Shown here piece by piece: positions 8,443 to 36,850 of a stretch of DNA of 55,478 nucleotides. Source of the DNA: a virus; IMG/VR virus record IMGVR_UViG_3300046007_008608, positions 1 through 55,478 of that record; one strand, written 5' to 3'. The translations under genes were made by a program, and so were the position numbers. Positions within the stretch are counted from its first letter, which is position 1. Every line of letters begins with the position of its first letter. The notes beneath the pieces are model-generated. The model ran no database searches. It was not told the DNA's origin and worked only from the letters and a program-made list of their open reading frames with translations.

Positions 8443-9354
8443 TTATTTTATTTTAATTATTTGAGATATAAATGCCATAAAGTTAATTTCTTTATCAGCT
8501 ATAGTATTATTTTGCCATAGGTATTGAGCTGAATGGATAGCCACATCAGCAGGTGATTTAGTGTATTCGTTAGCACGTTCATATAATCCCGTGTATAATG
8601 GCACGAAATCATTGATATCTGCGTCGGCAATTGCTTGTCTGACATCTGTCCATGATGTTGGTTTTTTCGCTTTTAAATGCGCTATAATCGCAGATAATAC
8701 GCCTTCAACATTAGGAACTAACGCACCTGGATTTAAAATATTATTGTCATCTATTGACTGCTGTGTTGCATTTATAATCTTTCTGATGTCAGGATAATAT
8801 GTCTTTACTAATGAAGCTATATCTTTTAATTCATATTTAATTTCCTCTTGATCTAATATCCAAGCTAAATGTTTTGCAACATCTCCCTTAGCAGGTGGTT
8901 CAATATGGAATGTTTGACATCTACTCTTAAGTGGATCAATAATACGTTCAGCATAATTAGCTGTTAATATAAAGCGTGTTTTAGCTGAATATGTTTCCAT
9001 CACATTACGCAATGCAGCTTGTGCTTGTGCTGTAATATAGTCAGATTCATCTAAAATAATTACTTTAAGTGGATTAAAGCTATTTACAGAAGCGAAGTCA
9101 ACAATTTTATCTCTAATAGTATCAATACCTCTCTCATCAGATGCATTAATATACATTACATCGCATTTGATGTTCTTAGTAATTAACTTAGCTAATGTGG
9201 TTTTACCTGTACCAGGCTTTCCGTATAATAATAAGTGAGGTATATCGTTATTAGTGATACACTTAGAAATGAAGGCTTTTACACCCTCATTTCCAACGTA
9301 TGTATCTAAATTTTGACTACGATATTTCTCAACCCATAGGGTATTGTTCGTCAT
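8443..9354 (-). CDS. 44: Clamp loader large subunit, AAA+ ATPase (T4 gp44-like)
   Basis: A 303-aa RFC/gp44-type AAA+ protein. WVEKYRSQNLDTYVG at residues 7-21 is the RFC box, and LLLYGKPGTGKTTLAK (residues 41-56) contains Walker A. VIILDESD at 98-105 is the Walker B (DExD) motif. TRFILTANYAERI is the sensor 1 region, and PLKSRCQTFHI holds the SRC arginine finger. Length equals the usual gp44 (about 320 aa). It opens and loads the sliding clamp at primer ends with gp62. Its start overlaps the 3' end of groEL by 26 nt, so chaperonin and clamp loader are on one message. Confidence 0.93.
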   Translation of the reverse strand: MTNNTLWVEKYRSQNLDTYVGNEGVKAFISKCITNNDIPHLLLYGKPGTGKTTLAKLITKNIKCDVMYINASDERGIDTIRDKIVDFASVNSFNPLKVIILDESDYITAQAQAALRNVMETYSAKTRFILTANYAERIIDPLKSRCQTFHIEPPAKGDVAKHLAWILDQEEIKYELKDIASLVKTYYPDIRKIINATQQSIDDNNILNPGALVPNVEGVLSAIIAHLKAKKPTSWTDVRQAIADADINDFVPLYTGLYERANEYTKSPADVAIHSAQYLWQNNTIADKEINFMAFISQIIKIK

Positions 9355-10960
9355 TTTTATCTTTTTTAGGTTCGTTATAAATTACACACTCAGTTAATAA
9401 TACTGTTCCTGCAACTGCAACGGCATTTTCTAAGGCTGTACGAGCAACTTTCATTGGATCGATAATACCAGCTTCAAACATGTCTCTTGCAGTTTCGGTT
9501 TTAATATCATACCCAAATGTACGACCATTTTCTGGGTTACTCTCTCTTGCTGATCTAAGAGTATAGATAATATCTGTGGTATTTTCAATACCAGCGTTTG
9601 ATAAGATTTTCAAGAATGGAGCGCCACATGCTGTATATGCTATTCTCTTTCCTAAATTAAAATCTTCACCGTCTTCTTTATTAAGTGTGATTTTTTCTCT
9701 AGCTTCAAGTAACGCTACACCACCACCTGGAAGTAATCCTTCTTCAAGTGCTGCTTTGGTTGCTTGTAAAGCATCATCGATACGATCTTTCTTCTCTTTG
9801 ATTTCAGTTTCAGTAGCACCACCGATATTAATTACGGCAACACCACCTACTAATTTACCTAAACGCTCTTGTAAGTGTTCTTTTTCAAACGCTGATTGTG
9901 ACTTTCCAATTTGGTCTTTAAGTTCAGTAATACGAGCTTGGATTGCATCTTCATCACCAACACCATCTACAATTGTAGTAGTGTCTTTAGTTACTGTTAC
10001 TACTCTTGCTTTACCGAACCAATCTGAATTAAAGCGCTCTAATTTCATTCCTTTTTCAGGTGAAATTACAGTACCGCCTGTTACTGTAGCGATATCTTCT
10101 AATACTGCTAAACGACGATCTCCAAAGTCAGGAGCTTTAACAGCAACTGCTTTTAACATACCTCTCATTTTGTTAACGATTAAGGTAGATAATGCTTCAC
10201 CATCAATATCTTCAGCGATAATCAATAATGAGCTATCTGTTTGTGAAGTACCTTCAAGTACTGGGAGTAATTCTTTAACTGATGTTAAACGTCCATTATA
10301 GATTAAAATTAATGGATCTTTTAATGCAGCAGACATTGTATTATTATCTGTTGTAAAATACATTGATTTATATCCTCTATCGAATTGAATACCTTCTACT
10401 GTTTCTAATGATGTTTCACCTGTTTTACTTTCTTCAACAGTAACAACACCATCTTGACCTACCATTTTCATAGCTTCAGCTACTAATGCACCAATTTCTT
10501 CGTCATTGTTTGCTGAAATGGTAGCTACTTGCTTAATTTGATCTTCAGAATTAATTTCGCGTTTAATTTCTCTTAAACCTTCAATTACTTCTCTAGATGC
10601 TGCTTCGATACCTTTTTTAACTAATACTACATTTGTATTTGCGTTAATAGATGCAAATGATTTTTGAATTAATACATTTGCTAGTACAGTCGATGTTGTA
10701 GTACCATCACCTGCTTTATCTGCTGTTTTAATAGATGCTTGCTTTACCATTTGAGCACCTATGTTCTCAATTGGATCTTCAAAATCTTTTAATGTTTTTG
10801 CTACAGTAACACCATCTTTAGTGCTACGTACTGTGTTATACTCATCAATGAATACTACGTTACGTCCGTAAGGTCCAAGGGTTGAGCCAACGGCGTCGGC
10901 TACTTGTCTAATACCTTTTGCTAGTTTGTTTTTTGCTTCTTGGTTGAATGCTGTTTTCAT
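9329..10960 (-). CDS. groL: Chaperonin GroEL (Hsp60), phage-encoded
   Basis: A full-length 543-aa group I chaperonin. Visible are LGPYGRNV (nucleotide-binding loop), KDGVTVAK (D52-equivalent), GDGTTTSTVLA (D87-equivalent) and DDALQATKAALEEGLLPGGGVAL (D398-equivalent), so the ATPase residues are intact. The apical domain is complete. The C-terminus ends EQYPMG rather than a long GGM-repeat tail, so the in-cavity tail is short. It follows groES by 9 nt, the usual groESL order. Phage GroEL is likely to help fold phage capsid or replication proteins in the cytoplasm. Most tailed phages rely on host GroEL, and T4 brings only a GroES analogue (gp31). Confidence 0.97.
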   Translation of the reverse strand: MKTAFNQEAKNKLAKGIRQVADAVGSTLGPYGRNVVFIDEYNTVRSTKDGVTVAKTLKDFEDPIENIGAQMVKQASIKTADKAGDGTTTSTVLANVLIQKSFASINANTNVVLVKKGIEAASREVIEGLREIKREINSEDQIKQVATISANNDEEIGALVAEAMKMVGQDGVVTVEESKTGETSLETVEGIQFDRGYKSMYFTTDNNTMSAALKDPLILIYNGRLTSVKELLPVLEGTSQTDSSLLIIAEDIDGEALSTLIVNKMRGMLKAVAVKAPDFGDRRLAVLEDIATVTGGTVISPEKGMKLERFNSDWFGKARVVTVTKDTTTIVDGVGDEDAIQARITELKDQIGKSQSAFEKEHLQERLGKLVGGVAVINIGGATETEIKEKKDRIDDALQATKAALEEGLLPGGGVALLEAREKITLNKEDGEDFNLGKRIAYTACGAPFLKILSNAGIENTTDIIYTLRSARESNPENGRTFGYDIKTETARDMFEAGIIDPMKVARTALENAVAVAGTVLLTECVIYNEPKKDKNDEQYPMG

Positions 10961-10969
10961 ATTTTATTT

Positions 10970-11260
10970 TTAGTCTTCAATTAATGCTAATACATTTGCT
11001 TCTGATACGGCGATGTATTCTACACCTTCCCATTCTAACTTTGTAGGACCTACTTGAGGTAATACTACTTTTTGTCCTACACTGAATGACATTGGGATAC
11101 GTGTATCTCCAGCTGCATTCCATCTTCCTGGTCCGACATCAACAATTGTTCCAATAATTGCTTTTTCTTGTGTTAAATCGGGAACAATAAATTTCCCATG
11201 CATTTTTTCTGTTTTCTCGTCTGCCTTTACTATAATGGCATCCCATACTGCTTTTATCAT
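10970..11260 (-). CDS. groS: Co-chaperonin GroES, phage-encoded
   Basis: A 96-aa protein with the GroES order. AVWDAIIVKADEKTEK is the first strand block, and MHGKFIVPDLTQEK is the mobile-loop region that docks on GroEL. It is short and lacks the usual 'GGI' triplet. GTIVDVGPGRW and VGQKVVLPQVGPTKLEWEGVEYIAVSEANVLALIED complete the beta-barrel. It caps the GroEL folding chamber. It is closer to bacterial GroES than to the diverged T4 gp31. It overlaps the 100-aa gene upstream by 4 nt and precedes groEL by 9 nt. The altered mobile loop may be tuned to the phage GroEL. Confidence 0.93.
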   Translation of the reverse strand: MIKAVWDAIIVKADEKTEKMHGKFIVPDLTQEKAIIGTIVDVGPGRWNAAGDTRIPMSFSVGQKVVLPQVGPTKLEWEGVEYIAVSEANVLALIED

Positions 11261-21376: not shown

Positions 21377-22372
21377 TTATTTATTTTTCCAGAATGAATA
21401 TATATTTTTTTCTATTTCGTAATCTTCCCATATAAATCTTTCACGTTTAGGTTGTTTTTGTACCCACTTCCACATCTGCTCTAGTCCATCATGTAGATGA
21501 GTTTTATGTTCAAATCCTAATATATCAATTGATTTTTGAAAAGTAGGTATTGCATGTTTTACTTCATATCTAGCTTCTTTATACACAACCTCTTCTGCCC
21601 CTATAATATTTCTTAACACAGCATTTGCTTCATTAATAGTATATCCAACAATACCGCCTAAATTAATAATTTGTTTTGATGCTTCTAGTTTTATAGCGGC
21701 ATTCCATAATGGTTCTAAACTATCATCAATATAGCTAAATGCTCTTTCTTGCATTCCATCACCAAATATAGTCATTGGTTCTCCGTTTAAATGTTGGAAC
21801 ATCCAAATGCCTAAAACGTTTCTGTACTTATCCCAAATATTTTGGTTTTTACCATACACATTATGAGGGCGTATAATACAGTAGTCTAGTCCGTGTTGTT
21901 CATTTGCTATTTCAATATCTCTTTCACAAGCTGCTTTAGCTACTCCGTATGGATCTATTGGGTTACGTAACATATCTTCATGAAATAATTCTCCATCTCC
22001 ATGTCCATACACAGCCATAGTAGAAGTAAATATTAGTCTCTTAACGTTATATTTAATGCACATATTTACAACTTTAGCAGTAGCTACTAAGTTATTTTGG
22101 TAGTTATAAGTTCTAATAAATGGAGATAATCCTTCAGCTGCATATGCTGCAAAATGAAAAACATAATCAATTTGTTCATTATTAAATATTGGGTCTAGTT
22201 CAGAATCTACTAGGTTGCGTTTCCAAAATTCTACTTTTGGATTAATATTTTCTATATAACCACCACTTAAATCATCTATACCAATTACTTTTACATTTGG
22301 TACATTTTCTATAATCCAATCTGCTAATCTACTTCCCAATAATCCAGCTACTCCTGTAATTAGTATTTTCAT
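21377..22372 (-). CDS. NAD-dependent sugar epimerase/dehydratase (extended SDR)
   Basis: A 331-aa extended short-chain dehydrogenase. KILITGVAGLLGSRLADWI carries the GxxGxxG NAD-binding loop at residues 7-13, VIGIDDLSGGYIENI the adenosine-binding Asp, VFHFAAYAAEG the active-site strand, FTSTMAVYGHGDG the Ser/Thr of the triad, and PYGVAKAACE the YxxxK. It resembles UDP-glucose 4-epimerases and related GDP/dTDP-sugar enzymes. It makes a sugar nucleotide for the adjacent transferases. It overlaps the GT gene upstream by 4 nt. Which sugar is used cannot be told. Confidence 0.88.
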   Translation of the reverse strand: MKILITGVAGLLGSRLADWIIENVPNVKVIGIDDLSGGYIENINPKVEFWKRNLVDSELDPIFNNEQIDYVFHFAAYAAEGLSPFIRTYNYQNNLVATAKVVNMCIKYNVKRLIFTSTMAVYGHGDGELFHEDMLRNPIDPYGVAKAACERDIEIANEQHGLDYCIIRPHNVYGKNQNIWDKYRNVLGIWMFQHLNGEPMTIFGDGMQERAFSYIDDSLEPLWNAAIKLEASKQIINLGGIVGYTINEANAVLRNIIGAEEVVYKEARYEVKHAIPTFQKSIDILGFEHKTHLHDGLEQMWKWVQKQPKRERFIWEDYEIEKNIYSFWKNK

Positions 22373-23655
22373 TTTTTATAATTAATCTGTGTTTCAATTC
22401 GTTCAGCCCATTCTTGGGATTTACTATGTGCCCATATTACTAAACGAGATGGTATTTTATCTATTAGGAAGAATTTTTCTTCACTGTACCAGTCACCTTG
22501 ACATGCTAGTATTCTTTTTATTTGATCTTCATTATAATCTTCTCTCCATATTTGATTTCCATTTTCATCATCAAAAGCACAAACCCAGAAATCATAATCG
22601 TCTAATACAAACGCATTTTTATTAATTTGTACTAAGTGATAGAATGAAAACATGAATGAATTTTCCCACTCTTCTTCATTTTCAATAATTGGATTTGGTG
22701 GGTAATTGTTATCGTACGTAAATCGCTGTACTGAACGTTTTTTAAAGTTAATACCTGCGTATTTTTCATAATCACGAAGTGTACGTTCAGTTCCTAAATC
22801 ATATCCTGTTAAATCAAATCCGTTATCTTCTGTGCGTAGTAATTGTCTTATTTTAGAACGTGCAATATCTTGTTGTGTCCACCAATCTTCACCACGTTTA
22901 GATTGATCATCCCATACTAATATGCCATCTCTTTCTTCACGCATTGTAGCATGCCATACTACTAACTTATGTGGATGAAACATATCATATCCGTGAGTGT
23001 ATGAACGTACTGTTAAGTTTAATTCTTCACCACTAAAGTAAATATCTGAATCATGTAGTATAGTTTTAGCCCAATGTCCATCTGCAAAGCAGAAATGTCC
23101 TGATAGAAATCTTGATGGTGGTGGTTCAGTCATATCTTTCCATCCTGTTAATAATCCTGGTCTAATGAAAATTGTACCGTGTGGGTAGAAACAAGCAAAT
23201 GTTTGTTGCCAAGGTTCCATCGTTCTTCCAGCAGGGTCATTAAATGGGTTGTAATATGGTAAGTAAGCTGCTAATATTGGTTTTTTATGTCCTTTATCTT
23301 TTAATTGATCATGCATCTCAATCAACGTAACATCCCAACCTTCAGCAAATCTATGGTGTGAATCTAATTGACAAATATATTCTTCATCCTTTAACATTGT
23401 ATTAATCTGATAACGAGCATAAGGCAATCCTTTAGCTTCAGTATGTGGAATATCTATTATTCTAAAGCGAGGATCTTCTCTAAATTCATCTACATTATCA
23501 AATCCATCTTCAGGATTAAATTGTCTACAAATACCAAATACTAATCTATCAGGATATGTAGCATTTTCCAATGCAGATTTAATTGTAGGAACTAATTCTG
23601 GTTCTCTATATGCTGGAAGATGTATGAATATTTTTCTTGATTTTGCTTTTTTCAT
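22369..23655 (-). CDS. GlcNAc-transferase-like glycosyltransferase (PF11397 type), copy 2
   Basis: A 428-aa protein starting MKKAKSRK; the reading frame extends 13 codons upstream, but this ATG makes a TAATG overlap with the stop of its paralogue. KIFIHLPAYREPELVPTIKS and FGICRQFNPEDG are the N-terminal signature of the Skp1-type GlcNAc-transferase family, and EYICQLDSHHRFAEGWD contains the DSH metal-binding triplet. FLSGHFCFADGHWAKTI and DIYFSGEELNLTVRSYTHG follow. The same order occurs in the gene before it, so the pair is a tandem duplication. It probably adds HexNAc to a protein or glycan. Confidence 0.82.
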   Translation of the reverse strand: MKKAKSRKIFIHLPAYREPELVPTIKSALENATYPDRLVFGICRQFNPEDGFDNVDEFREDPRFRIIDIPHTEAKGLPYARYQINTMLKDEEYICQLDSHHRFAEGWDVTLIEMHDQLKDKGHKKPILAAYLPYYNPFNDPAGRTMEPWQQTFACFYPHGTIFIRPGLLTGWKDMTEPPPSRFLSGHFCFADGHWAKTILHDSDIYFSGEELNLTVRSYTHGYDMFHPHKLVVWHATMREERDGILVWDDQSKRGEDWWTQQDIARSKIRQLLRTEDNGFDLTGYDLGTERTLRDYEKYAGINFKKRSVQRFTYDNNYPPNPIIENEEEWENSFMFSFYHLVQINKNAFVLDDYDFWVCAFDDENGNQIWREDYNEDQIKRILACQGDWYSEEKFFLIDKIPSRLVIWAHSKSQEWAERIETQINYKK

Positions 23656-24935
23656 TATTGTTGAATTTCTTGTTCGATAACTTCGTGATTCCAATCTTTA
23701 GATTTGCTGTGTGGCCATAATAACCATTTAGCCGGAGTGCCACTATATTCAAATTCTCTCCATATAGTATAAAAATGTCCAGGTGTGTTATTTGATTTAA
23801 TTGATCTTACTTCATGTTCGTCTGCATCCATCCTGCATATTTCTTTTCCATCTTTATCTTTAAATGCTATTACCCAACAGTCATAATCATCATCTGGTAC
23901 AGATTGTTTATAAACATTTATACAGTATCTAAAACGACTAGCCATTGATTTTTCCCATTCTTCATCTGTCATTGAAGGTATAGGAAGTAATTTACGGTCC
24001 AAAGTATGTTGGTGTATTCTTTTACCTCTAAAATCAAGACCAATATGGCGTTCAAATTCTTCTAATGTACGTTCTTTACCTAAATCAAATCCCACAAAGT
24101 CAAATTCGCTTCTATCTTGACCATCCATGCCGAATAATGCTTTGTATTTTCTAAATGAACGTTTATCTAATGGAGAGAAATCATGATCATCCCAGTGGCG
24201 TTTTTTTCCTTCTCTAGTGTATTCATGCCATATAACAGGAATGTGAGGGTGGAATAAATCATATCCGTGAGTAAATGCTCGAGCAGATATTGATGTTTCT
24301 TCACCATGGAAGTAAAGATCAGGATCGTGAGGAATATCATGCACAAATGAACCTAAACTAAAACCAAAATGTCCTGAGTAGAATCTAGCTGGTATTGGTT
24401 CTTTGTATTGTTGCCAATTATTAACATAATTAGGAGCAATAAATACAGGACCTTCAGGCATGTATCTATCAATGCTTGTGTGCCATATTTCAATATTGCG
24501 TCCTGCGGGGTCATTATTTGGAAAGTATCCTGGGAGATATGCTGTTAGTAATGGTTTTTTGTATTTTTTCTTTTGAAGGTGCTTTACCATATTGATTAAA
24601 GTCTCATCCCAATCCTTAGAGAATCGGTGATGAGAGTCTAATTGTAATGTGTATGTTTCTCCGTTATAATAACGTTGTAATTTATTTCGTGCCCAACATA
24701 CTCCTTTAGCATCCTTATAATGAATGTCTATGATTTTAAATCTAGAGTCGTTCTTATACTCATCTAAAGTATCCCATGTATCTTCTTCATTGTGTTGCCA
24801 TGCAATACAAATTCGAAGATTTTCAGGCCATTTGGCATTAGCCAGCATGTCTTTAAGTGTAGGAAGTAATTCAGGATCTCTGTAAGATGCTATTTGTACG
24901 AATATGGTATCGTTTGAAACCTTTTTTCTTGGCAT
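23655..24935 (-). CDS. GlcNAc-transferase-like glycosyltransferase (PF11397 type), copy 1
   Basis: A 426-aa paralogue of the next gene, collinear over its full length. It has FVQIASYRDPELLPTLKDML, ICIAWQHNEEDTWD, TYTLQLDSHHRFSKDWDET, FYSGHFGFSLGSFVH, DLYFHGEETSISARAFTHGYDLFHPH and a C-terminal HSKSKDWNHEVIEQEIQQ, all with counterparts in the other copy. The DSHHR motif is the DXD-like site. It is the first gene after a TATATTTATA element and begins the 9-kb glycan operon. Start context is GTTATG. Two diverged copies suggest different acceptors or linkages. Confidence 0.82.
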   Translation of the reverse strand: MPRKKVSNDTIFVQIASYRDPELLPTLKDMLANAKWPENLRICIAWQHNEEDTWDTLDEYKNDSRFKIIDIHYKDAKGVCWARNKLQRYYNGETYTLQLDSHHRFSKDWDETLINMVKHLQKKKYKKPLLTAYLPGYFPNNDPAGRNIEIWHTSIDRYMPEGPVFIAPNYVNNWQQYKEPIPARFYSGHFGFSLGSFVHDIPHDPDLYFHGEETSISARAFTHGYDLFHPHIPVIWHEYTREGKKRHWDDHDFSPLDKRSFRKYKALFGMDGQDRSEFDFVGFDLGKERTLEEFERHIGLDFRGKRIHQHTLDRKLLPIPSMTDEEWEKSMASRFRYCINVYKQSVPDDDYDCWVIAFKDKDGKEICRMDADEHEVRSIKSNNTPGHFYTIWREFEYSGTPAKWLLWPHSKSKDWNHEVIEQEIQQ

Positions 24936-25508: not shown

Positions 25509-25841
25509 TTATAATGCAAATGATTCACCACACCCACAGGTACGAGATGCATTTGGGTTTATCCATTGAAATCCTTTACCGTTTAATCCATCAGAATATT
25601 GTAATTCTGTTCCATATAAATAAAGCATAGATTTTCTATCTATAGCTATCTTTAACCCTTCATCAAATTCAAACCAATCATCTGTTGGTTCTATTTTACT
25701 ATCGAAATCCATAGTATACGTTAAGCCAGAACATCCACCACCTTTTACACCAACTCTTAAATAATGTGTATTAGGTGTTACTTCTGCCTCGTTCATTAAT
25801 TGCAGAATATGGCTGTGAGCTTTTTCTGTAATTGTTATCAT
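25509..25841 (-). CDS. iscA: A-type iron-sulfur carrier, IscA/ErpA/HesB family
   Basis: A 110-aa protein. ITITEKAHSHILQLMNEA starts the domain, LRVGVKGGGCSGLTYTM (C37) is the first signature, and TCGCGESFAL at the C-terminus gives C102 and C104. All three cluster-binding cysteines of the family are present, so it should carry an Fe-S cluster. It abuts IscU (1-nt overlap), so scaffold and carrier are made together. Possible clients in this genome are QueE and the Cas4-like nuclease. It is uncommon in tailed phages. Confidence 0.93.
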   Translation of the reverse strand: MITITEKAHSHILQLMNEAEVTPNTHYLRVGVKGGGCSGLTYTMDFDSKIEPTDDWFEFDEGLKIAIDRKSMLYLYGTELQYSDGLNGKGFQWINPNASRTCGCGESFAL

Positions 25842-26251
25842 TAGTGTATTCTCTCTTCAAATATCAATTGTTCTAAACCATTTTTAGTACGGTAATCATT
25901 AATAGCAGCTTTGATAGCATCTTCTGCTAATACTGAACAGTGAATTTTAACTGGAGGTAGATTTAATTCTTCTACTAAATCCATGTTATCAATAGTAACG
26001 GCTTCATCTAATGATTTGCCTTTTAACCATTCAGTAGCTAAAGAACTAGCTGCGATTGCTGATCCACATCCAAATGTTTTAAATTTAGCATCAACAATAA
26101 CATCATTTTCTACTTCAATCTGTAGTCTCATTACATCACCACATTCAGGTGCTCCTACTAAACCTGTACCAACGTTAGATTTAGATTTATCTAATGTACC
26201 TACATTACGTGGAGATTCATAATGTGATATTACTTTATCTGAGTATGCCAT
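25841..26251 (-). CDS. iscU: Iron-sulfur cluster scaffold IscU/NifU-N
   Basis: A 136-aa IscU. YSDKVISHYESPRNVG is the family start. GAPECGD gives C37 and D39, FKTFGCGSAIAASS gives C62, and KIHCSVLAEDAI gives C105, so the three cysteine ligands and the Asp are all there. LPPVK at 98-102 is the peptide recognised by HscA/DnaK chaperones in cellular IscU. The protein thus looks able to use host IscS and chaperones. It lies between a 53-aa membrane protein and IscA. An AATATTTA box ends 5 nt before the ATG, resembling a weak downstream promoter element. No cysteine desulfurase is in the window. Confidence 0.95.
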   Translation of the reverse strand: MAYSDKVISHYESPRNVGTLDKSKSNVGTGLVGAPECGDVMRLQIEVENDVIVDAKFKTFGCGSAIAASSLATEWLKGKSLDEAVTIDNMDLVEELNLPPVKIHCSVLAEDAIKAAINDYRTKNGLEQLIFEERIH

Positions 26252-26427: not shown

Positions 26428-27060
26428 TTAGAATTTTGTTCCATTTACTTCAATCGCGTGTAAGAATTCTTCACGAATTAAATTATCTTTTTCCATAAAC
26501 ACACCACTAAATTTGTTTGTAGTCATTACAGAGCCATGTTTGATACCTCTATGTGAGCAACATGTATGCTTACAAGCAATACTAACTGCTACTGAATCAC
26601 ATACCATTTTATTAGCAATATAATCATGAATTTGTGTTGTTAATGATTCTTGCATTTGTGGTCTACGTCCAAACCATTCAACAATACGATTTAATTTACT
26701 TAAACCAATAACGTTTTCTGCTGGTACATAAGCTACTGTAGCATAACCTGTAAATGCTAAGTTGTGGTGAGCACACATACTAACAATAGGAATACCTGAT
26801 TGAATTACTAGTCCATCATATCCTTCATCATTAGGGAATACTGTAATGTTTGGTTCATCAGTAACAGAACCTACGATTAAGTCTTTTAACCATGCTTTAG
26901 CTACACGTCTTGGTGTATCTACTGTTTGTCTATCAGCTGTGTAGTCAAATCCTACTGCATTAAGGAAATTTCCATATGCTTTAGCTGCTTTATCAATCAT
27001 CTGCTCAATCTCTTTTGGTGTACGAGCCATACTACCATTTGATTTTTTTAATAACTCCAT
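26428..27060 (-). CDS. folE: GTP cyclohydrolase I
   Basis: A 210-aa FolE. VDTPRRVAKAWL is the substrate-entry motif, SMCAHHNLAFTGYATVAYVP contains C96 and H98/H99, SKLNRIVEWFGRRPQMQESL the characteristic central helix, and CKHTCCSHRGIKHGSVMTT the second zinc cysteine region. Active-site and zinc residues are present. The enzyme converts GTP to dihydroneopterin triphosphate, the first step of the 7-deazaguanine route. QueD, QueC, QueE and the DpdA-like protein are encoded at 36-40.5 kb, so this completes the set. It leads an operon with class 1 promoter boxes upstream. Confidence 0.95.
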   Translation of the reverse strand: MELLKKSNGSMARTPKEIEQMIDKAAKAYGNFLNAVGFDYTADRQTVDTPRRVAKAWLKDLIVGSVTDEPNITVFPNDEGYDGLVIQSGIPIVSMCAHHNLAFTGYATVAYVPAENVIGLSKLNRIVEWFGRRPQMQESLTTQIHDYIANKMVCDSVAVSIACKHTCCSHRGIKHGSVMTTNKFSGVFMEKDNLIREEFLHAIEVNGTKF

Positions 27061-27111: not shown

Positions 27112-28440
27112 TTATAAATTCATTCTTGAACCTATTAGGAAAAAATTCATCAGCGGCATTGATGTGTTTGTAGAACCATTTAATTTATAGTTAAATGCAG
27201 CCGCAAAGCGTTTCGATATTTTATAATTTATCGATGTTCCCAATATAATACCAACATTTTTGTCTTTAGCTAATATATTTGTTTGTATATTATATGTTAT
27301 AGGAGAACTCATAACGAATATTTCAGGCGATAACGCTAATTTTTTATTTATCTGGTATGGTTTCATCCAAAATCCAGTTAATGAATATGAAGTTAATGGA
27401 GTTGTTTGGGTTCCCTTAAGTAATAGTCCCAATACAGATAAATTATACCCCATTGTTCCGTACTTTGCTGTTGGTAAAATGTGGGTGTATCCCACCATTG
27501 TCATATAATTTCCATTCATATACGCATTTGTAAATGAATAGTTGTCTATTGACTCAATTTTGCCCTTATCAAAGTTCATCTTAGTATATGATGCGGATAT
27601 GGCAAATTGTTTTAAATTAGACCAAATCATAGTATTAGCGCTCCAACTTGATTCACCTGTCATAGATGATTGAGATATACCTAGTGATGCTATTCCTGTA
27701 TATTGCTTATCTGCTCCTTCCCCTACTGTCAAGTCAGAAGCAAACATTATAGGATTTATCCTTGCTTGCTCTTTTTTACTCCCCTTTTTATCTTCTTTCT
27801 TTTCTTCTTTTTTATCTTCTTTCTTTTCTTCTTTAGACTCAGATTTTTTTTCCTCCTTCGATTCGCTCTTGCTTTCGCTCTTGCTTTCGCTTGAACTGCT
27901 GCTTTCTGATTTGCTCTCGGATGAGGATGTACCCCCAGAAGACGAAGACGAAGATTCCGAAGATGAAGAAGATGAAGATGTTGATGCAGATGATGATGAA
28001 GCTGATGAAGCTGATGAAGATGCTGCGCTTGAAGCACTTGAACTTGCGGATGAAGCTGCTGAACTTGCTGCTGATGAAGCAGCGGATGAAGCTGCTGAAC
28101 TTGCTGCTGATGCCGCGGCTGATGCTGCTGCTGACGCTGCTTGACTTACCGTTTGCGTTATAGTCTGCTGAGTTGTTTGGCTTATAGGGCATGGGGTTGA
28201 AAATATTTCATTAATCCATTTAGTTACTGCTCCTGAAGCAAAATCGGCATAGGTAAATGTTTTAAACTTATTTCTAATAAGTACTACTACACCAGATTGA
28301 TTTGAAGCAATTGGAACTAATACTGTGTATACTTTGTTATCACATGGATCAATATATGTTTGAACAATACTTTGGCCGTTAGCCTTATTAGCTATTAAAA
28401 ACATAACTAATATAGTAAAAGCTAACGGCCATTTTTTCAT
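27112..28440 (-). CDS. Secreted, low-complexity protein with outer-membrane-like C-terminal domain
   Basis: A 442-aa protein. MKKWPLAFTILVMFLIANKA followed by NGQ is a clear signal peptide. Residues about 24-100 form a small globular part. Residues about 105-175 are almost pure Ala/Ser, and 175-235 are Lys/Glu/Ser/Asp repeats (SKEEKKEDKKEEKKEDKKG). The C-terminal 200 residues alternate polar and hydrophobic strands (QFAISASYTKMNF, FAAAFNYKLNG) and end NFFLIGSRMNL, like a beta-barrel. The likely site is the outer membrane, with the charged linker spanning the periplasm or cell wall. It sits beside a CsgG-like gene and a lipoprotein gene. No family is recognised. Confidence 0.72.
   Translation of the reverse strand: MKKWPLAFTILVMFLIANKANGQSIVQTYIDPCDNKVYTVLVPIASNQSGVVVLIRNKFKTFTYADFASGAVTKWINEIFSTPCPISQTTQQTITQTVSQAASAAASAAASAASSAASSAASSAASSAASSASSSASSAASSSASSASSSSASTSSSSSSSESSSSSSGGTSSSESKSESSSSSESKSESKSESKEEKKSESKEEKKEDKKEEKKEDKKGSKKEQARINPIMFASDLTVGEGADKQYTGIASLGISQSSMTGESSWSANTMIWSNLKQFAISASYTKMNFDKGKIESIDNYSFTNAYMNGNYMTMVGYTHILPTAKYGTMGYNLSVLGLLLKGTQTTPLTSYSLTGFWMKPYQINKKLALSPEIFVMSSPITYNIQTNILAKDKNVGIILGTSINYKISKRFAAAFNYKLNGSTNTSMPLMNFFLIGSRMNL
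27750..28140 (-). repeat. Low-complexity coding tract (Ala/Ser then Lys/Glu/Ser codons)
   Basis: Degenerate tandem triplets inside the exported-protein gene. On the plus strand it appears as GCTGATGAA-type repeats (about 27.95-28.14 kb) followed by CTTCTTTCTTTTC-type repeats (about 27.77-27.85 kb). They generate spurious open frames in all other frames. Copy number is likely to vary between relatives through slippage. Confidence 0.8.
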
Positions 28441-28544
28441 TAGTATTTTTTAAGAATCTCTAAATTAGCTTTAACTAATTCAGCTTTCTTCATCCCGGAA
28501 CGTCTACTACGCATTGGGCGTTTTTTCTTTGCTGCTGTTCCCAT
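28440..28544 (-). CDS. Very small basic protein (34 aa)
   Basis: ATG at 28542-28544 and TAA overlapping the next ATG as TAATG (28440-28442). The product is MGTAAKKKRPMRSRRSGMKK followed by AELVKANLEILKKY: a strongly basic N-terminus and an amphipathic helix. It fills the gap between the CsgG-like gene and the exported-protein gene, and the tight TAATG junction suggests translation coupling. It could bind nucleic acid or membrane lipids. Function unknown. Confidence 0.5.
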   Translation of the reverse strand: MGTAAKKKRPMRSRRSGMKKAELVKANLEILKKY

Positions 28545-28547
28545 TGT

Positions 28548-29270
28548 TTAGTTTTTAAATATTCCTTTTTTAACCATTCTATCTAAAATTCTAGCACACG
28601 CAATATCTAATGCTTTCTTAGTTGCGATAGAAATAGTTGATTGATTGAATTTAATTGGATCTATAGTTGCATCTGATAATAATGTTAATTGTCTATTTGT
28701 AGTTGCTTCACCTAAGCCACTTGCACCGAACACTACACCTGTTTCTGCATCTGTAAATCTAACTTGCAAACCTAATCTTGTTACCATGTTATCTTTAATA
28801 CCATCTTTTAGATTGATGGTTTCATCTTCTGATACTGAGTAGTCATATACTTCAATAGTTACAAAGTATTCTGCTAAATTGATTTTACCTCTACCATCTA
28901 GTTTATTTTCAGATATTCCAGCTTGTGATGCTTGAAATTGCTTAACCATTCTATTTTTAATTTCCGTTTTGTCTTCGGTGAATTTAAAACGATTAAGATT
29001 TTCTAAATATTCCATTGTGATATTAGCAACACCTAACCCAACACGTTTTTCTTTTAGTTCAGGATACATTTCATACATCTCGTCTGAAATGCCTGCTTTT
29101 AAAATTTGAATAGGAATTTGTGGGCCTTCATAATCTAAGAATTGAGAAATATCAATCTTAGTTTCAAATGATGCTTTATATTGTTCTGTTTTTGTTACTC
29201 CTATTGTTTGAGCAACAGCCACAACACTGCTTAGTAAAAATAAACTTAATAATATCAATAATTTTTTCAT
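28548..29270 (-). CDS. CsgG-like exported protein
   Basis: A 240-aa protein with signal peptide MKKLLILLSLFLLSSVVAVA before a Gln. The mature part follows the CsgG order. RVGLGVANITMEYL and NRFKFTEDKTEIKNRMVKQF correspond to the 'GrF.vvER..l..il.EQ' block. LAEYFVTIEVYDYSVS corresponds to the 'A.y.i.G.vt.f' strand, and LGLQVRFTDAETGVVFGASG to the 'l.lrlvd..TG.i' strand pair. STISIATKKALDIACARILD is the C-terminal helix. CsgG forms an outer-membrane secretion pore for curli. Unlike CsgG it has no lipobox Cys. It is located next to a lipoprotein gene and the lysis cassette. The match is to the pattern of the family, not a database hit. Confidence 0.65.
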   Translation of the reverse strand: MKKLLILLSLFLLSSVVAVAQTIGVTKTEQYKASFETKIDISQFLDYEGPQIPIQILKAGISDEMYEMYPELKEKRVGLGVANITMEYLENLNRFKFTEDKTEIKNRMVKQFQASQAGISENKLDGRGKINLAEYFVTIEVYDYSVSEDETINLKDGIKDNMVTRLGLQVRFTDAETGVVFGASGLGEATTNRQLTLLSDATIDPIKFNQSTISIATKKALDIACARILDRMVKKGIFKN

Positions 29271-29273
29271 ACA

Positions 29274-29567
29274 TTATCTGTTTCTTGGTTGTCTTGGTTG
29301 TCTTGGGGGTAAAGGACGATATTGTGGTCTCTGTGGGATTACAATAGGACGTCTTTGAGGTATAACTATTGGTCTTTGTCTTTGAATAATAATAGGATTG
29401 TAAAAAGGAACACCCCATCCATAATTGAAAAAGAATGGAGATGGGGTGTATATATTATCATATATTACTCTTTGTTTTTTTACAACTGAATCTTTCTGAT
29501 CAACGTAAACGTACTGTACAGGTGTACAGCTTGCTAATAATAGTATACCAAGTAATAACTTTTTCAT
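29274..29567 (-). CDS. Small proline/arginine-rich lipoprotein
   Basis: A 97-aa lipoprotein: MKKLLLGILLLASC ends in a lipobox Cys at residue 14. The mature part starts TPVQYVYVDQKDSVVKKQR and ends with Pro/Arg/Gln repeats (PIVIPQRRPIVIPQRPQYRP, then PRQPRQPRNR). The basic, extended tail could bind peptidoglycan or polysaccharide. It is 3 nt upstream of the CsgG-like gene, so the two are made together, as a partner pair. No family is recognised. Confidence 0.7.
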   Translation of the reverse strand: MKKLLLGILLLASCTPVQYVYVDQKDSVVKKQRVIYDNIYTPSPFFFNYGWGVPFYNPIIIQRQRPIVIPQRRPIVIPQRPQYRPLPPRQPRQPRNR

Positions 29568-29578
29568 GTGTTTAGATT

Positions 29579-30187
29579 TTAGTGTGTATCATCATGTGAT
29601 TCTTTTAATAAACCACATTTTTGGCATTCTAAATATCCGTCCCCATCTGCGTCTCCCCAAACGTGAACACATTGTCTGTGAGCTTTCATTTCATGCTCTA
29701 ATTTAAGCTTTTCCATTTCTTGCTCGTGCTCTTGTTCATCTACTTCAAGCATTTGTCTATGTTCTTGTTCGTCTTTAGTTAAGTCATAGTTTTGTTTATT
29801 TTCAACTACTGCTAATTCTCTTGCTGCTGCTGCACCTTGAACGAATGCATCTGGAATTAATGGAGTAAATGGTTTGTTACTTTCTTTAATGTCATTAACA
29901 CTACCTAAGCTAACACCATCTTCTTCATCCATTTTCTGTACTAACATCTTATCCTTATCAGTGTCACTAAACCAGTAATCTATGATTTTACCATAGCTAC
30001 CAATGAAGGCACCTAACAATAACATTAATAACTCTTTCCATGCTGCGGCCATTGGTGTTTGTAATGTAATTGCAATAAATATACCTGCAATAATGATTAA
30101 AAATCCACCTAATACCATTGCTGTGATGTACCATCTACGGGACATCATTTTATTTAATAATTCTTTAAATCCTGTTGGTTGTTGCAT
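29579..30187 (-). CDS. Membrane protein with two transmembrane segments and a C-terminal zinc knuckle
   Basis: A 202-aa protein. WYITAMVLGGFLIIIAGIFI (about 19-38) and WKELLMLLLGAFIGSYGKII (about 50-69) are two membrane segments. The following region is charged and coiled-coil-like, with a Glu-rich EQEHRQMLEVDEQEHEQEME run. The C-terminus has two Cys-His pairs: CVHVWGDADGDGYLECQKCG resembles a small zinc ribbon and also carries an Asp-rich DADGDG loop. It is adjacent to endolysin and holin candidates, so it may be a holin or spanin-like part of the lysis cassette. Confidence 0.6.
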   Translation of the reverse strand: MQQPTGFKELLNKMMSRRWYITAMVLGGFLIIIAGIFIAITLQTPMAAAWKELLMLLLGAFIGSYGKIIDYWFSDTDKDKMLVQKMDEEDGVSLGSVNDIKESNKPFTPLIPDAFVQGAAAARELAVVENKQNYDLTKDEQEHRQMLEVDEQEHEQEMEKLKLEHEMKAHRQCVHVWGDADGDGYLECQKCGLLKESHDDTH

Positions 30188-30207
30188 ACTTTATTTTTTA
30201 ATGTTTA

Positions 30208-30513
30208 TTACCACTGTGCTGGTTTCTCTTTAAACTCATCAGCTTCTTTCTTAGGTTTAGCTGGAGCTGCTGGTTTAGTTGCTGCTTCTTTCTCCTTAAT
30301 AATTACTGTTTTACCACCTGCAGCTTGAGACTGTTGGTTAGAGTTTGTAATATTAATTACTGGGGCAGCTGCTGCTGGAGTTGCTTCCTTATCATCACCA
30401 CCTGTTAATTTTGTTGTAAACCAACCACCTACACCTAAAGTGATAGTAGATACTAATCCGATAAGAATATTCTTAAGGGAAGTACCAGTGCTTTCTTTTT
30501 GTTCTTCTGACAT
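30208..30513 (-). CDS. Small single-span membrane protein in the lysis cassette
   Basis: A 101-aa protein. SLKNILIGLVSTITLGVGGW (about 12-31) is the single hydrophobic segment. The remainder is Ala/Lys/Pro/Glu-rich (AATPAAAAPVINITNSNQQS, EKEAATKPAAPAKPKKEADE), an extended periplasmic linker of the kind seen in spanins or TonB-like proteins. It lies 7 nt downstream of the endolysin gene. A role as a spanin or holin accessory is likely but not proven. Confidence 0.6.
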   Translation of the reverse strand: MSEEQKESTGTSLKNILIGLVSTITLGVGGWFTTKLTGGDDKEATPAAAAPVINITNSNQQSQAAGGKTVIIKEKEAATKPAAPAKPKKEADEFKEKPAQW

Positions 30514-30520
30514 TGTTTTA

Positions 30521-31120
30521 TTATTTTAATAGTTCGTAATATTCTTTAAAGTGTTTGATACGATCAGCTAAACCAATTGTACCTCCGTTAACACGTTTAG
30601 TAATCATTGTTACTACTGCGTCTGTTGATCCTTGATCTGCTAATTTGTGTAAGTTATTTTTAGTGAAAAACCATGCTGCTGAAAGTAAAGCATATTCATT
30701 TGCTACTTTTTCAGGAGCAGCAGTTAAATCTTCATTAATCGCTTTACCAAATGCGGTATAGTTATCTTTACCTGTTAACTGGATATACCCACGTCCACAA
30801 TATTTTGCTCCATCACCTGATGCTTCAGGTCCGTTACCCATTCTACCACCATATACTTTATTGGCAATTTTTTGTGGGTTTCTAGCGTAAGCGGCTGCTG
30901 CTGCTTCTGTTGGGAAATACTTTTTAAAGATACCATTTAAACCTTTTGCAGAGTAGTTTAAATTTTCTTTTGTTAAGCGGAAACCGCCACTTTCATGTCC
31001 ACACTGTGCTAAGAAATGAGCTAAACGCAATGGCGTATTAAGCTGAAATTTGGCTGCTGTGTCAGGGATCATTGCTAATACCTTATCAGGTATATGTCCT
31101 TTTAATTTGTCTAAATTCAT
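30521..31120 (-). CDS. Endolysin, GH19 chitinase-like muramidase fold
   Basis: A 199-aa GH19 domain. RLAHFLAQCGHESGGFRLTK contains the catalytic Glu at position 43. ENLNYSAKGLNGIFKKYFPT, then IANKVYGGRMGN and KYCGRGYIQLTGKDNYTAF, are the conserved GH19 substrate-groove motifs. It has no signal peptide or wall-binding domain, so it needs a holin to reach peptidoglycan. It is followed by a one-span membrane protein and preceded by a two-span holin candidate, giving a compact lysis cassette. Confidence 0.93.
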   Translation of the reverse strand: MNLDKLKGHIPDKVLAMIPDTAAKFQLNTPLRLAHFLAQCGHESGGFRLTKENLNYSAKGLNGIFKKYFPTEAAAAAYARNPQKIANKVYGGRMGNGPEASGDGAKYCGRGYIQLTGKDNYTAFGKAINEDLTAAPEKVANEYALLSAAWFFTKNNLHKLADQGSTDAVVTMITKRVNGGTIGLADRIKHFKEYYELLK

Positions 31121-31133
31121 AGTCTATTTAATT

Positions 31134-31373
31134 TTAATTATCACCTTTTTTGTTAATCCATTTGTCAACTGATGCTATACCAAAACAAGCAATTGTTAAC
31201 ATTTTAAATGAATCAAAGATAAATTCATTAACTAACAATGGCATGTTCATCCATCCTGTAACAATATCTGCTACAGCGAATATCACCATAATTACAAAAG
31301 ACGCAAAACCAATTACTGCTTTTTCATTGATAGAATTGCTATCATTGAATAAATCATAGAAGAATTTTTTCAT
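31134..31373 (-). CDS. Putative holin
   Basis: A 79-aa protein with two hydrophobic stretches, AVIGFASFVIMVIFAVADIV (about 19-38) and a weaker one around NEFIFDSFKMLTIACFGIAS (about 49-68). It has charged ends, including a basic C-terminus DKWINKKGDN. Size, topology and the position 13 nt before the endolysin gene fit a class II holin. Holins permeabilise the inner membrane to release endolysin. Supported by context and topology only. Confidence 0.7.
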   Translation of the reverse strand: MKKFFYDLFNDSNSINEKAVIGFASFVIMVIFAVADIVTGWMNMPLLVNEFIFDSFKMLTIACFGIASVDKWINKKGDN

Positions 31374-31379
31374 ACTTTT

Positions 31380-31763
31380 TTACTTTTTAATTGTTATAAA
31401 ACTTTTTATTTCAGTTCCTTTAACATCAATAAGAATCAATGCATAGTCACCGTTATTTAAATCTGATAAATTGTAATTTTTTGTTGTTATATTATTTTCT
31501 GCTGTAAATCCAAATACTTTAGATGGATCTTCACTACCAAATGGTACAATTTGTACTGAATATTTTGCATCAGGTGTTGTTGCAAATTCAACTGTTATGT
31601 TACCTGTTGTTAAGGCTGGTATTATTTTATTGATAGATGTAGATGTAGATTTTACTCCTAAATCTATTGTGTAAGGAGTATCAAATGTCTTTCTACAGCT
31701 AGTAGCTATTAGTACTGTTAAAAATGATAACCCTAGTAATCTTAATATTGTTTTTTGTTTCAT
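31380..31763 (-). CDS. Small lipoprotein
   Basis: A 127-aa lipoprotein. MKQKTILRLLGLSFLTVLIA then TSC gives a lipobox, with Cys at about residue 23 followed by RKTFDTPYTIDLGVKSTSTS. The mature domain is beta-rich (TVEFATTPDAKYSVQIVPFG, DYALILIDVKGTEIKSFITI), like a small Ig-type fold. It abuts the dockerin/cohesin-like gene upstream by 1 nt and is probably its partner. It lies before the holin gene, so an envelope role in late infection is suggested. No family is recognised. Confidence 0.68.
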   Translation of the reverse strand: MKQKTILRLLGLSFLTVLIATSCRKTFDTPYTIDLGVKSTSTSINKIIPALTTGNITVEFATTPDAKYSVQIVPFGSEDPSKVFGFTAENNITTKNYNLSDLNNGDYALILIDVKGTEIKSFITIKK

Positions 31764-31764
31764 T

Positions 31765-33513
31765 TTAAAAATTATTGTATCCTGTTAGTTTAATTGTTGT
31801 TGTATTTAAATTAATACCTAATTGACTTCCTTTATTATCACTAGCATCTAAGTTTTGTGTAATTTTAATTCTAGTATTTAAATCAACTCCTTCTCCTATT
31901 GATGAAAACTTTAATTTGAATGGTGCTGAAATGCCATTGATAGGAGTTTTTAATTCTTTATCAATCGCTCCAAAACGTAATACACCGTTCTTTAGATTAA
32001 CAAACACAAACCATGTATTAGGTACCTCAGACTTTATTTCTTCAAACTTTACTTTAGTAGGATCATATACTACTTCAAACTGTAAAGCAGATACATTATT
32101 GTTTTTAGCATCTATATTAAATGGTATCTCAATGTTATTTGATACTACTGTTAAATTATTTAAATTAACGTCAATTATAGGTAACGACGGGTTTACTGTA
32201 TTAACTGAAAGTGATTTAAATATTATATCGTTAATTGAATTTGTTTGAATTTGGTTATTTACTACAACTTGAGAACTATGTGATCTGTTTATGTCTCCAG
32301 GAATTACATACTTTAAATCTAAGTTAATAGCCGTATCTCTAGTTTTAAATTTAACTTTATGGTCATTCCAATCTAGAGGTAAAGCTAAGGTTGTAGCAGC
32401 AGTAGCAGTATCAAAAAATGCTTTTGTAAATGTAGGTATACCTGTTGTAGTAGAACCTACTTGAGGATTAACAACAGTATCAGCACCTACTGCTTGGGCA
32501 AACAATAAAGCTAAATCACCTCCATCAAACTTACCATTTCGATTAAGATCTGAGGCGAAATATCCCATACCTGTTTTCATAGAAGTATTAGTAAACGTGC
32601 CGTCTAAATTTTGTTTATTAAATTCAGTTTGTGCTGCTGTGTAGTCAGATACTGTTATTGCTTTATTTAAAGTTCCTGCTAATGTATCGCTAGGTAAATA
32701 AGCTAATGCATAGTATGTTGTATTAGGTAATACTTGACTACTTACATAAAATGAACCATCTTGTCTTATAGAAGGCCATGCTTTAACTTGAGAAGTAGCT
32801 GAGTCTATAATGGCAAGTACTGGATGGTATCCGGTAATTAGATTGGTATTGATTTGAAATGTGCCTTTAATTAATGCGTTAGTTGATGGATCTAAATCTA
32901 CCCAAGCCGAATTTGGTTTAGGCATTGTAACAGTTTTTACACTACCAACATTGTCCCAACCGTAAGCAAAGTTGTAATAGATAGAATCATAAGCAAATCC
33001 CGCCTGAACAGTTTCTACTTTAAACAATAACTGCGCTAGTAAACCATCATTCAAATCAGTTTGATTTCCATTAGGTGTAGCTATGTTGATGTTAATACGG
33101 TTAATTGCTCTAGATTGTCCTTGTATGTAATTATAACTAGCATACTGTGCATTCACAAGACCATCCTCAGTATTATTATTAGCGTTATCTATCCAGTTAT
33201 AGCCTGGGTAGTAGTTGTTAACAACGGATGTGGTAGCGCCTGTTGGTAAAGAAGCGCCTTGAGTACCGGCTGTTGGAAATCCTACTCCAATTAAGTTAAT
33301 AGCTGATATTTGGTGTTGGAAGTCTAAGTAGAAATTACGTAGACGAGATTGATTGTTCTTAAACATTAAGTTAAGAACTATGGTATCTCCTTTCTCAATT
33401 ACACCTCCATTTTTATCTGTAGTGATTGTGTTAGGGGATATCTTTAATTCAGCAATTTGAGCTTGTGCGCTCAGACTGATTACTGTCAGTAATACTGCTA
33501 ATATTTTATTCAT
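31765..33513 (-). CDS. Large secreted protein with dockerin-like and cohesin-like domains
   Basis: A 582-aa protein with signal peptide MNKILAVLLTVISLSAQAQ. Residues 321-340 (SDLNRNGKFDGGDLALLFAQ) fit the calcium-binding dockerin loop, and VIPGDINRSHSS near 410 may be its second half. Residues about 430-580 carry EIPFNIDAKNNNVSALQFEV, VVYDPTKVKFEEI and GISAPFKLKFSSIGEG. These are typical of cohesin-like beta-sandwiches. The N-terminal 300 residues may contain a second such sandwich (IVLNLMFKNNQSRLRNFYLD). A secreted Ca-dependent adhesion or scaffolding protein is suggested. Gene exchange with a Bacteroidota host is a plausible origin. Confidence 0.72.
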   Translation of the reverse strand: MNKILAVLLTVISLSAQAQIAELKISPNTITTDKNGGVIEKGDTIVLNLMFKNNQSRLRNFYLDFQHQISAINLIGVGFPTAGTQGASLPTGATTSVVNNYYPGYNWIDNANNNTEDGLVNAQYASYNYIQGQSRAINRININIATPNGNQTDLNDGLLAQLLFKVETVQAGFAYDSIYYNFAYGWDNVGSVKTVTMPKPNSAWVDLDPSTNALIKGTFQINTNLITGYHPVLAIIDSATSQVKAWPSIRQDGSFYVSSQVLPNTTYYALAYLPSDTLAGTLNKAITVSDYTAAQTEFNKQNLDGTFTNTSMKTGMGYFASDLNRNGKFDGGDLALLFAQAVGADTVVNPQVGSTTTGIPTFTKAFFDTATAATTLALPLDWNDHKVKFKTRDTAINLDLKYVIPGDINRSHSSQVVVNNQIQTNSINDIIFKSLSVNTVNPSLPIIDVNLNNLTVVSNNIEIPFNIDAKNNNVSALQFEVVYDPTKVKFEEIKSEVPNTWFVFVNLKNGVLRFGAIDKELKTPINGISAPFKLKFSSIGEGVDLNTRIKITQNLDASDNKGSQLGINLNTTTIKLTGYNNF

Positions 33514-34154
33514 TATTTACTCTCAAATAGTTTAGTGATTAGTTTATCACAACTTTTCTTAAGCGCATTGCTTAAACTTGTTTGATTGAACTTACCACCT
33601 TCATCTATTATGAGTGTAGACATAGAGATTTCAGATGATGATTCTTCAACTAAAACCTCTTTAACCTTTTTGTCATTCTTATATAAAATTCCTTTCATAC
33701 GAATAACAACTTCCTCTTCATTTTTGTGAAATACGGAGATATTCTTTTTTGTATTTAAAACGTCTAAATAGACGATTTGTACTTGCAATTTATACGGTGC
33801 ACTTGGTGCTAAATCGTATCCTTTTTCTTGTAAAAATTCTTCTAACACATTTTTTACACCAAATTCTAATTGTCTATTACCTGCTAAGGCACCTACTTTA
33901 ACGTTATTTGTTACACCATCAACCCAAATGTGTTCTTCGGCATTATACCAAACATTACCCGGTGAATTTTTGAATGTACCATTAAATTTCCAATCTAATT
34001 CATGTGCAATCTGTGATACTAATTTACTATGTCCACTAAATTCTAATGTAAGTGCTACAATCTGTATTAGTAAAGCTGAGATGACAAATACCACCACCAG
34101 TCTTAATGCAACTAGTGTAAGTTTTTCTTTTAAAAATGTTACAGCTTTTATCAT
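33513..34154 (-). CDS. Membrane-anchored envelope protein, unrecognised
   Basis: A 213-aa product from the ATG at 34154 (a TTG at 34211 would add 19 residues, and has no better start context). The N-terminus MIKAVTFLKEKLTLVALRLV leads into VVFVISALLIQIVALTL, one membrane anchor. The rest is periplasmic alpha/beta: FGVKNVLEEFLQEKGYDL, APYKLQVQIVYLDVLN, EEEVVIRMKGILYKN and a C-terminal LSNALKKSCDKLITKLF helix. This layout recalls small envelope lipoprotein-like folds such as YajG. It overlaps the dockerin/cohesin gene by 1 nt. Function unknown. Confidence 0.62.
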   Translation of the reverse strand: MIKAVTFLKEKLTLVALRLVVVFVISALLIQIVALTLEFSGHSKLVSQIAHELDWKFNGTFKNSPGNVWYNAEEHIWVDGVTNNVKVGALAGNRQLEFGVKNVLEEFLQEKGYDLAPSAPYKLQVQIVYLDVLNTKKNISVFHKNEEEVVIRMKGILYKNDKKVKEVLVEESSSEISMSTLIIDEGGKFNQTSLSNALKKSCDKLITKLFESK

Positions 34155-34171
34155 AAAATAAAATAAAATGA

Positions 34172-34203
34172 GGTCGGTGATAAATAATAAAATATCACTA
34201 ACC
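34172..34203 (-). terminator. Weak hairpin with T-rich tail after the membrane/coiled-coil gene
   Basis: On the minus strand GGT-TA-GTGATA pairs with TATCAC-CG-ACC across a 10-nt AT loop (6 bp, a 2-nt mismatch, 3 bp). It is followed by CATTTTATTTTATTTTATG. It follows the stop at 34227 and precedes the ATG at 34154, so it could be a weak terminator or a leader structure. Confidence 0.4.
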
Positions 34204-34226
34204 CCTTGCAATATATATGTATTTTT

Positions 34227-36001: not shown

Positions 36002-36850
36002 TTATACGTTTAATGTTTTATCCCACGCAGCAATATGCAAACGCGTTAATCCTCTAAATCTATATTTCTTAGCCATCTCCATTACGAATCGAGTACGCTC
36101 TTCAAAGTTAGCAGCATCGTCTAAACCTGGCATACAAACAACATTTTTAAGCGGTATTTCAAATGGTTCTACGAAGTCACGGAATAATTCTAATACATCA
36201 TCTTCTGTGCTGATAACGAACTTAAACTGGTAGTTCTTGTGTTGTTTAATACGCTCAATTGCCTCTGGTACAATACGTTGTTTAGCTGTCATACCTGAGT
36301 TAGCTAATTTAGGTGAGCAATTAATTTGGTCTAGTATATTAAATAAAGGTAAATCAATTACTATAGTACCATTAGTTTCAATTTCTTGGAATGGAGTAAA
36401 CTCATGCCAGCTAGTGCCTTGTGATATAACATTACCCCAATGGTTGTTAAAATTAACAATTGCTTCTTGATGACCTTTAATTGTTGGTTCACCACCTGTC
36501 CAAATAATATGAACAGTACCACGGTTTATATCATCATATACACCTTCCTCTTTCCATCTATCAATCAGATATTGAAATTCTTTATCTTCACCTCTCCATA
36601 ACCACTGAGATGTAGAGTCACAAGTCCATGTTGCTTTACCTTCTTTAACTAAATCACCTTCAAATATTTCACCATCTTCTAAAGATGCCTCTTTCATTAA
36701 AGCGTTAGTGAATGCACGAGACATACCACATGTTAGGTTACAAATACCTAAACGTACAAAATACGCAGGAATACCTGATGAAATACCTTCACCTTGAATC
36801 GTATAAAAGTCACTACTGATAAGTAGTTTATTTGGGTCAATTTTACTCAT
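36002..36850 (-). CDS. queE: 7-carboxy-7-deazaguanine synthase, radical SAM (QueE)
   Basis: A 282-aa enzyme. SSDFYTIQGEGISSGIPAYFVRLG at the N-terminus is the diagnostic QueE start and WTGGEPTIKG (117-126) the GGEP SAM-binding motif. Cysteines at 37, 41 and 77 form the cluster site. The usual CX3CX2C is changed: CNLTC is followed by a 35-residue insertion and then TCDST. The enzyme forms CDG from 6-carboxytetrahydropterin. QueE is usually 200-250 aa, so the extra length is explained by the insertion. It overlaps the 44-aa gene upstream by an ATGA junction. The Fe-S cluster could be supplied by the phage IscU/IscA. Confidence 0.88.
   Translation of the reverse strand: MSKIDPNKLLISSDFYTIQGEGISSGIPAYFVRLGICNLTCGMSRAFTNALMKEASLEDGEIFEGDLVKEGKATWTCDSTSQWLWRGEDKEFQYLIDRWKEEGVYDDINRGTVHIIWTGGEPTIKGHQEAIVNFNNHWGNVISQGTSWHEFTPFQEIETNGTIVIDLPLFNILDQINCSPKLANSGMTAKQRIVPEAIERIKQHKNYQFKFVISTEDDVLELFRDFVEPFEIPLKNVVCMPGLDDAANFEERTRFVMEMAKKYRFRGLTRLHIAAWDKTLNV

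Follow-up and report, generated by a model that had tools for sequence, protein, structure and literature searches.

The locus raises the question of why a phage should carry a cluster of genes for exported proteins, one of them resembling the curli secretion pore CsgG, around its endolysin and holin candidates. The window, that is, the whole stretch of DNA that was analysed, covers 55,478 nt (positions 1-55,478 of the IMG/VR virus record IMGVR_UViG_3300046007_008608). Its island consists of ten genes at 27112-34211, named A to J here by ascending coordinate, all on the minus strand and all intact open frames at the coordinates first assigned to them. Folds, export signals, gene order and conservation were computed, and the island is read here as encoding a phage-made trans-envelope complex that would export or anchor a cohesin/lectin adhesin on the infected Bacteroidota cell, a reading to which a rough probability of 45% is given.

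A cleavable signal peptide or lipobox was found in five genes: A (27112..28440), B (28548..29270), C (29274..29567; lipobox LLASC), H (31380..31763; lipobox IATSC) and I (31765..33513). J (33513..34211; TTG start, with an ATG at 34154 also possible) begins with an N-terminal membrane helix that is uncleaved. By a simple home-made signal/anchor score, seven of the ten island genes were flagged against one of the 58 remaining genes of the window (Fisher p = 9e-7); two of these seven, D and J, are membrane-helix proteins, which leaves five with a cleavable signal. The island is a real cluster of exported proteins, and the six genes with a signal peptide, lipobox or anchor counted by the first-pass annotation were recovered as the five plus J, enriched against the rest of the window.

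B is the gene that had been likened to CsgG. Single-sequence searches with B against the PDB and Pfam found no match, and window B did not reach the Pfam CsgG family (PF03783) on its own, so the link to CsgG had to be drawn from relatives and structure. Relatives of B were found in 501 stretches in one scan of viral contigs and 526 in a second, in only two bacterial genome contigs, and, among sequenced phage records, only in isolates of Flavobacterium phage immuto (54% identity). Pfam CsgG was reached by three of 54 relatives (best 8.5e-5), and a profile comparison aligned B residues 75-183 with bacterial CsgG (hhalign, E 1e-4). An AlphaFold model of fair quality (pLDDT 75.5), built from the alignment of 54 relatives, had CsgG and the PelC ring as its best 29 matches in the PDB (Foldseek E 1.6e-6, prob 1.00), with FlgT, LptE and other folds of periplasmic proteins and lipoproteins next in line. 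TM-scores of the model against CsgG were only 0.31-0.50, so the hairpins of B are differently placed or poorly modelled. By profile and model B is a CsgG-fold protein with a putative pore role, and the early likening to CsgG was right at the level of the fold. Bacterial CsgG uses two membrane-spanning hairpins to build a 36-strand barrel, whereas in B the tip of the first hairpin is an acidic Glu-Asp-Glu (148-150), nearly invariant in at least 50 of the 54 sequences, and the second hairpin is not predicted, its region being about 10 residues shorter than that of CsgG as counted by eye; thus B may stay outside the membrane. A lipobox is missing from window B, whose signal peptide ends AVAQ with no Cys; among relatives, 29 of 147 fit a loose lipobox pattern. 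J matches Pfam Lipoprotein_16 (E 3.4e-4). By hhalign it groups with immuto gp19 (prob 99.9), whose family is in turn homologous to B (prob 97.4, E 1.3e-11) and has a similar terminal FNQ/FNK-type helix motif. As judged from these alignments, J is a shortened, inner-membrane-anchored paralogue of B with a CsgG-like/YajG-like periplasmic domain, so that the island holds two related CsgG-like domains, one of them tied to the inner membrane.

The barrel-like end noted earlier in A was borne out, as the last 217 residues (27115..27765) were modelled as a 12-stranded outer-membrane barrel with high confidence (AlphaFold pLDDT 91.9, pTM 0.81). No Pfam barrel family matched A. Behind the signal peptide of A comes a short N-terminal stretch bearing a Cys pair, present in 110 of 124 relatives, and then a disordered linker, about 150 residues long, in which Ser, Gly, Thr and Ala are abundant. 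At 27766-28155 (minus strand) the linker is long, repetitive and of low complexity, Ser/Ala-rich and then Lys/Glu-rich, and Ser-rich linkers recur across 124 relatives. Among PDB matches of the barrel, FapF, the channel for functional amyloid in Pseudomonas, takes the top seven places (best E 3.6e-7), with the autotransporter barrels NalP, EspP and BrkA close behind. FapF has the same layout of a periplasmic N-terminal part, a disordered linker and a 12-stranded barrel (PMC5557850), but its identity to A is 8%, A has no demonstrated coiled coil, the Cys pair sits in its N-terminal part, and no Fap operon partners of A were seen. At such an identity, the resemblance is a likeness rather than evidence of kinship. 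With a CsgG/PelC fold in B and a FapF-type barrel behind a linker in A, both proteins resemble parts of amyloid or polysaccharide export. It could be argued from the PelC and lipoprotein folds among the best matches of B, from its acidic hairpin, and from NalP, EspP and BrkA among the matches of A that B and J, as periplasmic CsgG-fold proteins of the kind of LpoB, YajG and PelC, act on the machinery of the cell wall or of polysaccharides and play no part in secretion, A being an independent autotransporter-like protein. Such an arrangement is improbable, given the strict linkage of B to A, E and the adhesin in 68 of 69 loci.

Whether these genes belong to a lysis cassette was examined by synteny. 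F (30521..31120) is, from its profile matches, a true endolysin of GH19 type (phrog_181, E 2.9e-71; PF00182, 4.6e-9), as first proposed. D (29579..30187), with two membrane helices and a C-terminal CxxC-type tail, and the small membrane protein G (31134..31373) are holin candidates by topology only, to which extent their first assignment holds. In homologues of D, the holin-like two-helix part is often followed by DxDGDG repeats and a CxxC-type, zinc-ribbon-like tail, an odd combination. C is a Pro/Arg-rich lipoprotein, o-spanin-like by composition only. E (30208..30513) has a single inner-membrane helix, a variable Pro/Gln-rich tail (Pro/Gln/Asn-rich in the window) and a C-terminal Trp that is present in 151 of 151 homologues, a constancy that points to a docking end.

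For synteny, 72 non-redundant, well-flanked relatives were gathered via the B gene, and the counts therefore describe what travels with B. E, B and A were each present in 72/72, a J-type gene in 71/72 and a cohesin adhesin in 69/72, with the order adhesin-E-B-A kept in 68/69 loci. B is the most conserved gene of the island, with a median identity within the clade of 87% versus 48-52% for A and E. The other genes are less constant (D 51/72, G 30/72, H 10/72, C 7/72), and those window genes flanking the island that were tested recur in at most 5 of 81 loci. An endolysin was found in 38/72 relatives, a lower bound because endolysins of other families would escape detection; in eight it was encoded on the other strand, in only 1/69 did it fall within the span from the adhesin to A, and in the cultured phage immuto it is about 8 kb from the unit. 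The interleaving of F, G, D and C with the unit in this window is thus an exception, and the placement of the unit within a lysis cassette was not supported. Nor was the pairing of the basic lipoprotein C with the CsgG-like gene, C being found in only seven of the 72 relatives.

In a lysis or egress module, E, B, C and A would stand in for spanins by bridging the outer membrane and disrupting it, beside the holins D and G and the endolysin F. This would agree with the interleaving of F, G, D and C with E, B and A in the window, with the frequent presence of D (51/72 relatives) and G (30/72) close to B, with the pelagiphage CsgG likewise following two small membrane proteins, with the lysis role proposed for phage CsgG (PMC9004378), and with the fact that no other spanin was recognised in the window. 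It is nevertheless unlikely, both because of the endolysin counts and its distance in immuto and because the conserved partner is an adhesin, which is unnecessary for lysis. The fibre and superinfection-exclusion readings fit a conserved adhesin better than lysis does. Of the phage-made pore or fibre system proposed at first, the CsgG fold, the barrel and their exported partners stand as one unit, and its membership of the lysis cassette is not supported.

The adhesin-like protein I carries a signal peptide, a dockerin-like motif and a C-terminal cohesin (residues 459-524, 31942..32139). The cohesin match (E 8.5e-5, 23.2 bits) is just below the Pfam cut-off of 24.1, which close relatives exceed, and dockerin evidence in the window consists of an EF-hand-like motif only. 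Among 57 relatives, Cohesin was found on the adhesin in 40, the T9SS sorting domain in 32, Lectin_C in 12 and Dockerin_1 in 3. I changes fast, at a median identity of 27%. Such a fast-changing surface protein beside a constant core, together with its lectin and cohesin domains, could be taken to mean that superinfection exclusion is the sole purpose of the island, the adhesin displayed via the complex masking the receptor and blocking adsorption of other phages; rapid change equally fits adhesion, however, and exclusion as the only purpose is quite unlikely.

The T9SS sorting signal (TIGR04183) is absent from I of the window and present on the adhesin in a sister clade. By curated models, the T9SS domain was above cut-off in 15 of 28 whole records, with at most one match per record, and those match positions that were compared with the locus ranges fell inside the island cohesin adhesin gene adjoining E-B-A; counts from a home-made T9SS profile were discarded because the profile mixed in cohesin ends. 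In the window clade, the adhesin has no T9SS signal and some members possess the lipoprotein H, part of which resembles the C-terminal sorting domain of T9SS cargo (PF18962, E 0.021 in the window and 4.3e-4 in the homologue of locus L073). H as a split-off T9SS domain was considered and rejected as weak (hhalign prob 9%). A small frame in the record of locus L077 matches TIGR04183 (1.7e-4).

Promoter scans revealed little about the island. T4 late promoters (TATAAATA) were not above chance in number and none lay on the island coding strand, a Bacteroidota promoter pattern occurred at chance level, and sigma-70 and terminator scans were uninformative. Several further genes of the window were noted. 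GTP cyclohydrolase I (26428-27060, minus strand; PF01227, E 6.5e-47) directly follows the island, and a gene at 36002-36850, with no Pfam match, resembles QueE as judged by eye; the two together suggest 7-deazaguanine DNA modification. Iron-sulphur cluster genes, IscA-like (PF01521, E 1.7e-16) and IscU/NifU-like (PF01592, E 1.6e-49), overlap by one base at 25509-26251 (minus strand), the IscU-like gene occurring in the window and, of 27 other records searched, in three. At 21377-24935 (minus strand) lie two GlcNAc-type glycosyltransferases together with an NAD-dependent epimerase, which possibly concern surface-sugar changes, and at 9329-11260 (minus strand) a phage GroEL (phrog_5725, E 3.3e-149) adjoins a GroES-like gene (PF00166, E 2.6e-18).

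Based on the finding that the unit of J, adhesin, E, B and A is conserved while its flanks are not, a model was proposed for how the trans-envelope complex may be assembled, what its substrate and timing may be, and what function and benefit it may have. J and E would be anchored in the inner membrane and extend into the periplasm, B would oligomerise into a collar, either periplasmic or at the outer membrane, and A would be an outer-membrane channel with a long periplasmic linker. The surface product would be I, with its cohesin and dockerin-like parts and, in relatives, a C-type lectin, and in the sister clade the adhesin may leave via the host T9SS. The outcome would be a sticky or masked cell, aggregating with its neighbours or no longer adsorbing other phages. 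The island probably serves to remodel the host cell surface during infection, not just to burst the cell. Counting against this surface complex are the holin-like D, often near the unit (51/72), the acidic first and short second hairpins of B, the missing CsgF and CsgA/B, and the lack of a T9SS signal on I in the window. A bolder version, in which J and E in the inner membrane, the B collar and the A channel constitute a new phage secretion system that equips infected Bacteroidota with a lectin coat or fibre linked by cohesin and dockerin, and draws in part on host type IX secretion, is rather doubtful.

Islands of CsgG with a secreted repeat protein are known in SAR11 and OM43 phages (PMC7029224, PMC9599517, PMC9004378), for which sibling capture (PMC7029224), aggregation (PMC9599517) and lysis timing (PMC9004378) have been put forward, all as proposals. 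What the first-pass annotation described as CsgG near lysis genes in T4-like phages corresponds to these pelagimyophage and OM43-phage curli islands; phage CsgG does exist there, beside CsgF and curlin-repeat genes, and its lysis role is a hypothesis (PMC9004378). The curli islands of HTVC008M and Melnitz carry CsgF, a canonical lipoprotein CsgG and curlin repeats, and such type VIII islands in pelagiphages and the OM43 phage Melnitz (CsgF-CsgG-curlin repeat-FecR) resemble the window island as multigene sets of a CsgG-fold protein with secreted surface proteins. A further likeness is that pelagiphage CsgG follows two small membrane proteins. Their CsgG is a lipoprotein matchable by BLAST, whereas B is matched by profile and fold only and has no lipobox in the window. 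Searches for CsgF and the curlin-repeat subunits CsgA/B in the window and the records of 27 relatives, some of them fragments, were negative with a positive HTVC008M control, and beyond these no obvious alternative substrate was seen in the same records. In their place the window island combines E with a FapF-like barrel, a paralogue of B and a cohesin adhesin, which bears a T9SS signal in relatives; the two kinds of island share fold and plan, not gene set. Phage-encoded T9SS sorting domains were described in Cryophage on enzymes and a PA14 protein and called a unique occurrence (PMC7468147); such domains are common to both, but in the window relatives they belong to a cohesin adhesin at a fixed place in many phages. 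No published description of this island was found, and searches of named phages starting from A, I, D or J were negative. The same gene set occurs as gp13-gp19 of Flavobacterium phage immuto (NC_055915), annotated merely as lectin, cohesin and hypothetical proteins, where B is 54% identical and the adhesin, with a T9SS signal, is split over several genes. In the literature found, surface remodelling by phage-made secretion parts has so far been proposed for SAR11 and OM43 phages, whose curli genes are borrowed; the present island has folds of the same kinds in a different gene set and is found in hundreds of contigs of uncultivated phages of freshwater and marine Bacteroidota and in one cultured example, so that the use of phage CsgG-like proteins becomes testable in the pair of immuto and Flavobacterium sp. 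LMO8. In conclusion, the best reading of the island is that it is parallel to, and distinct from, the curli islands of pelagiphages.
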